This document shows, one piece after another, positions 6,368 through 27,577 of a stretch of 41,826 bases of DNA. Numbering within the stretch: the stretch's first letter is position 1; the number at the start of each line of letters is the position of its first letter. The translations under genes and the position numbers were made by a program. The DNA is from an uncultured Holophagaceae bacterium (GTDB lineage Bacteria; Acidobacteriota; Holophagae; Holophagales; Holophagaceae), in assembly GCA_903857495.1 (NCBI GenBank), contig CAIOFF010000050.1, positions 1-41,826 on the forward strand. Direction: 5' to 3'. The notes beneath the pieces were generated by a model, which ran no database searches, had not been told where the DNA came from, and worked only from the letters and a program-made list of their open reading frames with translations.

Positions 6368-7660
6368 TCAGCCCCAGACTTTCCGGCCCCCGACCCAGGT
6401 GCTCAGCACCTTGCCCGGCAGGCTCCAGCCCTTGAACGGGGTGTTGTAGGAGCGGGATTGGATGAAGGCACGGTCCACCTGCACCCGGCCTTCGGGATCG
6501 AAGAGGACGAAGTCCGCCGGGGCGCCGGGCTTGAGGCTGCCGAGTCCCTTGCGGTCTAGGTGGAAGGCCTTGGCGGGGCCGCTGGTGAGCAGGGCGATGG
6601 CCCGGGGCAGGGAGAGGACGCCGCGGTTCACCAGGACCTCGATGGCCAGGGGCAGGGCGGTCTCCAGGCCGATGACGCCGAAGGCGGCCACGGGCAGCTC
6701 CACTTCCTTGTCATCCCAGCCGTGGGGGGCATGGTCCGTGGCGATGGCGTCCACGGTGCCATCCGCCAGGGCCTCCAGGATCGCCTGGATGTCGCTCTCG
6801 GTGCGCAGGGGCGGGTTCATCTTGAAGTCGGCGTCGAACTTCATCAGCTCCTTGTCCGACAGCGCGAAGTGGTGCGGCGTCACCTCGCAGGTGACGTTCA
6901 GGCCCCGGGCCTTGGCCTCCCGGACCATGCGGAGCGAGCCCCGGGTGCTGAGGTGGGCCAGGTGCAGGTGGCCGCCCGTGTGTTCCGCCAGCACGATGTC
7001 CCGGGCCACCATGGCCTCCTCGGCCGCGGCCGGAATGCCCAGGCACCCCAGGGAGGCGCTGACGGCGCCTTCGTGCATGTAGCCCTTGCCGGCCAGGTCC
7101 CGGTCCTCCTCGTGGGCCACCACGGGCACCTCGAGCCAGCGGGTGTATTCCAGCGCCCGGCGCATGAGGGCCGAGTTGGAGATGGGCAGGCCGTCATCCG
7201 AGAAGGCCACGCAGCCCGCGGCCTTGAGGGTGCCCATGTCCGCCAGCTCCTCGCCCTTCATCTCGCGGCTCACGGTCCCGATGGGGAAGTAGCGGCAGAG
7301 CCCGGCCTTGGCAGCGCGATCCAGCATCAGCTCCGTGATGGCGACGGTGTCGTTCACGGGCTTGGTGTTGGCCATGGCGCACACGGAGCTGAACCCGCCG
7401 GCCACCGCGGCCCGACTGCCCGTCTCGATGCACTCCTTGCGGGTCTGACCCGGCTCGCGGAAGTGCACGTGCAGATCGATGAAGCCCGGCGTCAGAACCG
7501 CCCCGCCGCCGTCCAGGACTTCGGCCTCCTCGGCCCGTGGGTGGGATGCGGCCCCGGCACCGATGGCGGCCACCGCCCCGTCCGCCACCAGCAGTGAGCC
7601 CGGCCCATCGAGACCCTGCGCAGGATCGATCAGGCGGACATTCTTCACGAGGAGGGACAT
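6368..7660 (-). CDS. pyrC: Dihydroorotase
   Basis: A 430-residue class I-type dihydroorotase, which cyclises carbamoyl-aspartate to dihydroorotate in pyrimidine synthesis. Visible family signatures are DLHVHFREPGQTRKE (62-76) with the metal ligands H64 and H66 and substrate-binding R68, the AMANTKP segment (95-101), and the C-terminal DHAPH motif bearing the catalytic Asp. Start ATG 7660 is preceded by AGGAG at 5 bases; a longer frame to 7729 runs into repeat-like sequence and is rejected. Length is normal. It lies downstream, on the same strand, of guaB and of the repeat-bounded GxxExxY gene, so a purine and a pyrimidine gene are separated by that insert. Confidence 0.93.
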   Translation of the reverse strand: MSLLVKNVRLIDPAQGLDGPGSLLVADGAVAAIGAGAASHPRAEEAEVLDGGGAVLTPGFIDLHVHFREPGQTRKECIETGSRAAVAGGFSSVCAMANTKPVNDTVAITELMLDRAAKAGLCRYFPIGTVSREMKGEELADMGTLKAAGCVAFSDDGLPISNSALMRRALEYTRWLEVPVVAHEEDRDLAGKGYMHEGAVSASLGCLGIPAAAEEAMVARDIVLAEHTGGHLHLAHLSTRGSLRMVREAKARGLNVTCEVTPHHFALSDKELMKFDADFKMNPPLRTESDIQAILEALADGTVDAIATDHAPHGWDDKEVELPVAAFGVIGLETALPLAIEVLVNRGVLSLPRAIALLTSGPAKAFHLDRKGLGSLKPGAPADFVLFDPEGRVQVDRAFIQSRSYNTPFKGWSLPGKVLSTWVGGRKVWG

Positions 7661-7715
7661 GGGGACTCCTGGCAATAGATCACGAACGAGTCTACCTGCT
7701 TCAAAGGCAGAAGAA

Positions 7716-7755
7716 GAACACCGATGCACTCCGATAACTGCTGATGAACGCCGAA
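7716..7755 (+). repeat. Left 40-bp inverted repeat of GxxExxY module 1
   Basis: This 40-base block, starting GAACACCGATG and ending AACGCCGAA, matches the reverse complement of 8156-8195 at 36 of 40 positions, including a 15-base perfect core (CCGATAACTGCTGAT). It lies 56 bases before the pyrC start and brackets the GxxExxY gene with its partner. Confidence 0.85.
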
Positions 7756-7774
7756 AAATGGGACGGGTGGAGGG

Positions 7775-8146
7775 CTAACGGGAAAGCCGCTTGATCTGAG
7801 GTCTGGTTGTGCCGAAGTTGATCAGGAGGCAGGTCGGCAGATGGGTGGCCTTGAGGTAGTTAAGACACTGGGCCGAGTGGACCTCTTCCAGTGCCTTGCA
7901 GGCCTTTAGCTCGATTAGCAGGCGACCCTCGACGATCAGGTCTGCGACATAGGTGCCGATGACCTGACCTCCGTAGTTCACGGAGATGGGGGCCTGCTGC
8001 TGGAAATCAAGACCCACTTCATTGAGTTCCAAGGCCAAGGCGTTCTCATAGACCTTTTCCAGGAAACCTGAACCGAGGGTGTTGGAGATCTTGTAAACCA
8101 GTCGAATCACAACCTCCGTCAGGGGGTCGTGATCAGCGCGAGGCAT
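7775..8146 (-). CDS. GxxExxY protein (PD-(D/E)XK-like family)
   Basis: A 123-residue protein of the GxxExxY family. The name-giving motif is G-SGFLEKVYENAL (residues about 25-38). A downstream block has DLIVEGRLLIELKA, where D, E and K fall as in a PD-(D/E)XK nuclease fold, then QCLNYLKAT and GLLINFG-type (LLINFGTT) ending. The biochemical role of the family is not established; nuclease activity is an inference from the motif. ATG 8146 directly follows GGGAAGG, which is closer than ideal. The gene sits alone inside a 40-bp inverted-repeat pair between guaB and pyrC and is colinear with both. A second family member is at 26937. Confidence 0.85.
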   Translation of the reverse strand: MPRADHDPLTEVVIRLVYKISNTLGSGFLEKVYENALALELNEVGLDFQQQAPISVNYGGQVIGTYVADLIVEGRLLIELKACKALEEVHSAQCLNYLKATHLPTCLLINFGTTRPQIKRLSR

Positions 8147-8155
8147 CCTTCCCTG

Positions 8156-8195
8156 TTCGGTGTTTATCAGCAGTTATCGGTGTTCATCGGTGTTC
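8156..8195 (-). repeat. Right 40-bp inverted repeat of GxxExxY module 1
   Basis: Its reverse complement matches 7716-7755 at 36 of 40 positions. The block itself contains a partial internal repetition (TTATCGGTGTTCATCGGTGT). It ends 11 bases before the last base of guaB, so the module fills nearly the whole guaB-pyrC gap. Confidence 0.85.
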
Positions 8196-8206
8196 CAGTT
8201 CTTGCC

Positions 8207-9667
<1,461 letters not shown>

Positions 9668-26855: not shown

Positions 26856-26895
26856 ACTGATCACCACGAAGACACTAAGGCACGAAGAAAAGCGA
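26856..26895 (+). repeat. Copy A of the CACGAAGA repeat family (module 2)
   Basis: A block starting AACTGATCACCACGAAGACA contains three octamer units (CACGAAGA, a degenerate CACTAAGG, CACGAAGA; 26865-26888). It matches copy B at 27342-27381 in direct orientation over about 40 bases with only a few differences. It begins 27 bases before the pmbA start. Confidence 0.8.
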
Positions 26896-26936: not shown

Positions 26937-27323
26937 CTAACGAACCAGGCGGTGGAGGCCTTCTTTATACGTCGGGACGTTGAAGTTCATGAGGAACCCA
27001 AGACGGCGGCCTGAGAGTTTCAGGTAGCTCAGTAGTTGCGCTTTGTGGAGGGCCAGGATGACATCAACCGCCTTGACTTCCAGGATGATGGAACCCTCCA
27101 CCAGGAGGTCCAGGCGCAGTGGATCCTGGAGAAGGATTCCCTTGTAGCAGAGGGGAACCATTACCTGGCGCTCGACCCTGAGGCCCTTGGCCTCAAGCTC
27201 ATAGACAAGAGCGGTTTCGTAGATGCGTTCCAAAAGTCCTGGCCCAAGCTCCCGGTGGACCTGGAACCCAGCGTCTACAACCTCGCGGGCCATCGCTTCT
27301 AAATCATCCCCAAGATCCAGCAC
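26937..27323 (-). CDS. GxxExxY protein, second copy
   Basis: A 128-residue GxxExxY-family protein. The motif is ELGPGLLERIYETAL (about 25-39), followed by PLRLDLLVEGSIILEVKAVD, where D, E and K are in PD-(D/E)XK-like order, then LLSYLKLSGRRLGFLMNFN, the conserved C-terminal block. It differs strongly from the copy at 7775, so the two are not recent duplicates. The start is taken as GTG 27323 with GAGG upstream; ATG 27293 is an alternative. The gene lies between copy A and copies B and C of a CACGAAGA repeat family and between pmbA and the tldD region, colinear with both. Function is unknown. Confidence 0.85.
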   Translation of the reverse strand: MLDLGDDLEAMAREVVDAGFQVHRELGPGLLERIYETALVYELEAKGLRVERQVMVPLCYKGILLQDPLRLDLLVEGSIILEVKAVDVILALHKAQLLSYLKLSGRRLGFLMNFNVPTYKEGLHRLVR

Positions 27324-27341: not shown

Positions 27342-27381
27342 AACTGATCACCACGAAGACACGAAGACACGAAGAAAAGCA
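27342..27381 (+). repeat. Copy B of the CACGAAGA repeat family (module 2)
   Basis: Starts AACTGATCACCACGAAGACA and has three perfect octamer units at 27352-27375, then GAAAAGC-like sequence as in copy A. It is direct to copy A and inverted to copy C. Confidence 0.85.
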
Positions 27382-27514
27382 AAAAACAAGAAGCAGGTAA
27401 AAATTACGAATGAATAGGTTGTGCCACGATGCTGTTGGGTTGTATTCAGGGGATAGGCTGAGATCGTAAGTACCCAAGTTGTTGCACTCCAACCTGTTCG
27501 TTTTTTATACATAT

Positions 27515-27577
27515 ATTCTTTGTTTTTGCAGTTCTTCGTGTCTTCGTGTCTTCGTGTCTTCGTGTCTTCGTGGTGAC
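27515..27577 (-). repeat. Copy C of the repeat family, five tandem octamers (module 2)
   Basis: TCTTCGTG is repeated five times without interruption at 27533-27572 (CACGAAGA on the minus strand), followed by GTGAC. On the minus strand the block reads GTCACCACGAAGA... and ends in a GCAAAAACAAAGAA stretch similar to the tail of copy B. It is inverted to A and B and ends 23 bases before the last base of the coaE-tldD frame. Confidence 0.88.

Follow-up and report, generated by a model that had tools for sequence, protein, structure and literature searches.

At the guaB-pyrC locus of an uncultured Holophagaceae bacterium, a small gene of the GxxExxY family is enclosed by a long inverted repeat. 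This raises the question of whether gene and repeat belong together and, if so, whether they move together. The window analyzed here is the whole stretch of 41,826 nucleotides around the locus. The upstream neighbor guaB (IMP dehydrogenase, positions 8207 to 9667) and the downstream neighbor pyrC (dihydroorotase, positions 6368 to 7661) are colinear on the minus strand; the pyrC start at 7661 was set by a conserved ATG in an alignment of relatives. A sequence-only reading had described a 40-bp inverted pair that encloses only the GxxExxY gene and fills with it most of the gap, and had proposed a nuclease-dependent mobile unit ending at the repeats. The description was borne out. Positions 7716 to 7755 (GAACACCGATGCACTCCGATAACTGCTGATGAACGCCGAA) match the reverse complement of positions 8156 to 8195 (GAACACCGATGAACACCGATAACTGCTGATAAACACCGAA) at 36 of 40 positions, the GxxExxY gene (positions 7775 to 8146, minus strand, 123 aa) is the one open reading frame between both arms, and the module occupies most of the interval from 7663 to 8206. 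The guaB-side arm (8156 to 8195, plus strand) consists of the units TTCGGTGTTT, ATCAGCAGTT, ATCGGTGTTC and ATCGGTGTTC, and the pyrC-side arm (7716 to 7755, minus strand) is its mirror image, with the 10-bp units GAACACCGAT, GCACTCCGAT, AACTGCTGAT and GAACGCCGAA. A repeat search extended the inverted pair to 7709–7755 and 8156–8202 at 85%.

When all ungapped pairs of inverted 40-mers at most 700 bp apart were scanned in the 41.8 kb window, the top pairs were found in the guaB-pyrC module (36/40) and beside a second GxxExxY gene (36/40, 27352/27517), while the best unrelated pair reached 28/40. The second gene (26946 to 27290, minus strand) belongs to another lineage of the family. Its left arm (26861 to 26888, plus strand) is built from the unit CACGAAG (TCACCACGAAGACACTAAGGCACGAAGA) and pairs with positions 27549 to 27576. 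An extra complete palindrome, with CACGAAG units face to face, lies beside the gene at 27345 to 27576.

The product of 7775 to 8146 matched TIGR04256 (E 7.4e-40) and PF13366 (PDDEXK_3; E 1.6e-39) over the full models and above the curated cut-offs (135.9 bits with a cut-off of 35, and 135.3 bits with a cut-off of 22). These were the only families matched by the window protein, and no HuH family was among them. Across 20 diverse family members that differ in their arms, G25, G27, E30, Y33, D69, K81, Q93, and N110 were invariant and E79 and Y97 nearly so, and all ten residues are present in the window protein. D69, E79, K81, and Q93 make up the PD-(D/E)XK active-site set, and a QxxxY motif is conserved as well. 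The combination of this motif with the PD-(D/E)XK set is known from RecB and Cas4. The structure model of the window protein (pLDDT 94.9) had the Cas4-like nuclease SSO0001 and lambda exonuclease as its closest solved folds (best TM 0.59 on the query); no sequence relative was found among solved structures. The window protein is therefore predicted to have a PD-(D/E)XK nuclease fold with the active-site residues in place, in line with the motif set that the sequence-only reading had given for the family. PADLOC defense models and PHROGs phage families gave no match, and no relative was found on viral contigs or among 50,697 phage records. Relatives were rare on plasmids (8/72,556).

The arm is a multi-copy sequence in its own genome. 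In the 3.7 Mb assembly that contains the window, the guaB-side arm has about 70 matches, nearly all of them in head-to-head palindromes without a gene, and a 23-bp arm core has 35 matches with at most three mismatches, compared to none for the reversed control. At the 35 loci inspected the matches were nearly all facing pairs, with the constant side outward and 60–450 bp apart. The arms consist of a variable number of 10-bp units ACCGATGAAC and an inner unit of the AAAAGCTGAT type. The palindromes start with CCACCGATG or CACCACCAAG, and the foot of the stem lacks GTAG. Most pairs have a short A/T-rich loop as their sole content and form strong hairpins (folding z -8.6 to -14 in six examples from two unit families); no Rfam match reached the gathering score in five element-bearing loci. 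A GxxExxY gene of the window kind is enclosed at two loci only, the window module and a variant locus on contig 63. A module search of the assembly at the DNA level returned two more GxxExxY genes, and the genome has eight in total. Further arm copies with and without a gene are thus present, and the feature extends far beyond the single module that had been described.

A guaB orthologue was found in 47/47 genomes of the genus, and the guaB-pyrC gaps of relatives occur both with and without the module. Eight species (G000, G029, G060, G062, G063, G036, G067, and G016) have the module in the gap; all eight GxxExxY copies are intact, and the relatives with the gene at this site also carry the arms. 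In G026 the gap is bare (31 bp), and in G028, G001, G020, G068, and G023 it contains gene-less CACCAAG palindromes. In three genomes CACCAAG arms surround an SRA-HNH gene (L153/L329 in G008, L167/L330 in G032, and L180/L331 in G012), which is of a modification-dependent restriction type. Between orthologues at the guaB site the mean pairwise identity was 0.95 for the pyrC-side arm and 0.92 for the guaB-side arm, compared to 0.82, 0.89, and 0.56 for codon positions 1, 2, and 3 and 0.42–0.65 for the spacers. The arms must therefore be kept by selection or homogenization, and the repeat is neither absent elsewhere nor drifting freely. The presence of the module is scattered on the guaB tree. This suggests repeated loss, gain or local recombination, between which a single-gene tree is too weak to choose. 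In G066 (L178) a scar-like remnant, GAAGAGCAGCGTGTTCC, matches the outer flanks of the module of G016 (L183) and looks like a module deletion.

Two other palindrome families, AGCTGTCAGC and GGAGTCTGGAGTC, were observed in the guaB-pyrC gaps of two further groups of genomes, one consisting of G069, G003, G030, G035, G015, G009, G025, G006, G018, G007, G022, and G005, and the other of G002, G024, G064, G017, G033, G031, and G004. No GxxExxY lineage with either of these words was seen.

Relatives of the window genome have 0 to 10 GxxExxY genes. For each gene the upstream flank was aligned locally to the reverse-complemented downstream flank, and a score of at least 16.5 was taken as an inverted repeat. 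Flanking inverted repeats were found for 56/64 genes, a handful of which were other nested palindromes without unit arms, compared to 3/238 shifted positions in the same loci; the remaining 8/64 had no inverted repeat detectable by this score. The arm words differ between genes (CACCAAG, CGCCAAG, CACGAAG, CACGGAG, CCGCAGAG, GCGGAGGA, CACGGAAGA, CACAGATT, GCGAATGG, ACAGGATTA, CACGGATGAAC, ATCACCGTTC, ATCCCCGTTC, ACCGATGAAC, and others) and are ordered by protein clade in a tree of 84 proteins. Between different genomes the median arm similarity was 0.79 at 70–90% protein identity, 0.11 at 55–70%, and 0.04–0.05 below 55%, while between GxxExxY genes within one genome it was 0.05. The rank correlation between protein and arm exceeded that of 2000/2000 permutations, and in 49/53 cases an arm was more similar to that of the nearest protein from another genome than to the arm of any other GxxExxY gene in its own genome. 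GxxExxY genes are thus strongly associated with inverted arms, and the pairing is specific to the protein lineage. Genes of the same type are nearly always found at one genomic site in related species, and the GxxExxY gene thus behaves as a long-resident locus. The association within the genus may for the same reason be partly due to co-inheritance, which the lineage-arm test alone does not separate from recognition.

A profile of one GxxExxY subfamily was considered across phyla, in 84,980 species genomes. At least 586 relatives were found, and the best 80 of these span more than 20 phyla, with Methanothrix, Methanophagales, Methanosarcinales, cyanobacteria, Chloroflexota, Planctomycetota, Verrucomicrobiota, and Pseudomonadota among them. 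Within the best 80 of the at least 586, an inverted repeat with a score of at least 16 flanks 51/77 genes compared to 3/516 controls, and inward-facing tandem CRCNRAG units were found on both sides of 58/75 genes compared to 0/522 controls. A reversed pattern is unsuitable as a control for CACRGAG arrays, since a tandem array matches its own shifted reverse, and the counts of that array search were left out of the statistics. The unit of the subfamily, C[AG]C[AG]GAG, is kept across more than 20 phyla, methanogenic archaea included. Co-inheritance at one site is insufficient to account for a subfamily that retains a single DNA word although its hosts and genomic contexts are unrelated, while joint horizontal transfer can contribute to the constancy of the word.

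To find empty sites of the gene-less palindromes, their joined flanks were searched in four close relatives. Empty sites were found for five elements (L056, L008, L042, L034, and L052), and six loci in all gave clear filled and empty pairs. The missing stretch was broader than the arms and often reached the neighboring stop codons, with 20–60 bp outside the arms gone as well, so that insertion has the same appearance as intergenic deletion; loss and gain are in such a search separable only with a robust species tree. The junctions do not coincide exactly with the arms, at which the proposed mobile unit would end. Short direct repeats were found at two elements, E1 (GGCTTTTTTT) and E6 (CACCCGC..GCCG), and the filled and empty alignments of gene-less palindromes contained no target-site duplication that was consistent or constant in length. 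Insertion of these palindromes with target-site duplication is possible.

The CACCGATRAACACCGAT word is present in 0 to 91 copies per genome. Its median was 15.5 where the genome encodes a protein of at least 64% identity to that of the window and 1 elsewhere (p 4e-4, uncorrected for kinship), and the ACAGGATT word was also more common with the matching protein (p 6e-5, likewise uncorrected for kinship). Many copies were found in genomes without the matching protein, 51 in G017 and 10 in G012, and copies can therefore persist or spread without it. Altogether the short gene-less palindromes behave as the dispersed element, and the gene-bearing locus behaves as a long-resident one with patchy presence.

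Based on these observations GxxExxY is probably a PD-(D/E)XK nuclease that is specific for its cognate arms and has a dispersed palindromic repeat as its partner. The protein would be a small nuclease of the RecB/Cas4 type, with the tandem-unit arm around its own gene as cognate DNA. Facing arms would form palindromes able to fold into hairpins; the gene-bearing module would be one of these, its loop taken up by the nuclease gene, and its non-autonomous partners would be the gene-less palindromes. The nuclease might bind the arms as duplex or as extruded or single-stranded hairpins and might cut at or beside them. Repair of the break could then copy, remove or homogenize palindromes, which would keep the repeat family alive and its units uniform. 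Recognition of the arms by the protein is likely, and it is plausible that the palindromes are spread or kept up by the nuclease. The presence of CACCAAG arms around the unrelated SRA-HNH gene counts against this reading, as do the many copies in some genomes without a matching protein, the constant site of the gene within the genus, the empty sites that do not coincide with the arm ends, and the eight genes for which no inverted repeat was detected.

The arms could instead be only operators or processing sites of the nuclease itself, serving autoregulation or transcript ends. In that case replication slippage, an unrelated transposase or another route would have spread the palindromes, and the protein would do no more than exploit or police them. 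The arms do adjoin the gene, often at 10–50 bp from the domain, palindromes at gene ends would serve as hairpin terminators, and copies occur where the matching gene is missing. We nevertheless find this explanation rather unlikely, since it leaves the dozens of gene-less copies of the gene's own arm unit unexplained, copy number rises with the matching protein, and no known RNA family matches. The mobile unit that was originally proposed, in which the gene and both arms move autonomously with the nuclease as the enzyme, in the style of a homing endonuclease or transposon, would fit the gap that is bare in G026 and filled in eight species scattered on the guaB tree, the scar in G066, and the filled and empty sites of non-autonomous palindromes. 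The constancy of the site of same-type genes in relatives, the near absence from plasmids and absence from phage records, and the fact that no target-site duplication was seen for the gene-bearing unit make it quite improbable. What stands of that proposal is that the gene and the multi-copy repeats belong together; there is so far no support for the gene-bearing unit of the window jumping autonomously. Pure hitchhiking, where a gene once landed in old intergenic repeats and was inherited or transferred jointly with them without recognition, would agree with the genomic context shared by most same-type genes in the genus. It is highly improbable, as the arms outlast neutral drift at third codon positions, members of one subfamily in more than 20 phyla share a single unit despite unrelated contexts, and lineages within one genome have different units.

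Among known systems the pairing of nuclease and palindrome most resembles REP/TnpA_REP, in which a resident, single-copy, housekeeping-like nuclease gene is bracketed by palindromes that are also dispersed in the genome and whose recognition has co-evolved (PMC8266576). Shared with the REPtron (TnpA_REP/RAYT with REP/BIME; PMC8266576, PMC2817692) are intergenic palindromes that are scattered over the genome as inverted pairs and also lie on both sides of the nuclease gene, a copy number that correlates with the gene, a single-copy, chromosomal and housekeeping-like gene, and enzyme groups that have co-evolved with the repeats. The REPtron enzyme is an HuH tyrosine nuclease (Y1 transposase), whereas GxxExxY belongs to PD-(D/E)XK; the GxxExxY repeats are two to four tandem units of 8–10 bp without a GTAG tag, several GxxExxY lineages with different units coexist per genome, and archaea are included. 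The system thus resembles a REPtron in how it works, yet falls outside that class, as it has neither an HuH enzyme nor GTAG. MITEs of insertion sequences are likewise short elements with inverted repeats that carry no gene and have a gene-bearing relative, but the only product encoded between GxxExxY arms is a PD-(D/E)XK nuclease, not a transposase of the DDE, HuH, serine or tyrosine type, and no consistent target-site duplication was seen for the palindromes. Nucleases of the Cas4/RecB type (SSO0001, 4ic1) share the fold and the active-site motifs including QxxxY, whereas GxxExxY has 123 aa, no iron-sulfur domain was seen, the context contains no CRISPR or helicase, and the gene is bracketed by its own repeat. 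Multicopy sequences of Geobacter include palindromic and short direct-repeat families in intergenic regions (PMC2996986, PMC2700814); compared by description, these differ in that no partner gene is reported there. In the literature searched, which excluded subscription papers and preprints, GxxExxY was mentioned in two of 5.39 million papers, only in passing and never with repeats, and none of the repeat words was found in a relevant context. Relative to that scope, the partnership of nuclease and repeat looks undescribed.

More tentatively, GxxExxY proteins could serve as the enzymes in a class of nuclease plus cognate palindrome that is widespread in bacteria and archaea and non-homologous to REP/TnpA-REP. 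In this class a minimal PD-(D/E)XK nuclease would read the short tandem word through a lineage-specific code and would be the cause of the spread and upkeep of gene-less palindromes, hundreds of them in a genome. Beside REP/TnpA-REP this would be a second, independent case in which dispersed palindromes coexist with a resident nuclease, and it would offer an origin for the intergenic palindrome families of environmental bacteria and archaea. For PF13366/TIGR04256, a very widespread family without established function, the link between lineage and word gives a testable substrate. The paired sets of proteins and words are a ready data set for the DNA-recognition code of a 110-residue nuclease.

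Two minor observations concern the structure of the palindromes. A second dispersed repeat (AAGGATCTCCACGAAGGACACGAAG ... GGCATCCGGGCC) was found inside ACCGATGAAC palindromes, within their loops, at L056, L030, L052, L021, and L034. At L058 and its orthologues L242 and L243 the number of tandem units per arm was about seven in G000 and two to three in G069 and G022, and this variation among close relatives indicates that the arms expand and contract.
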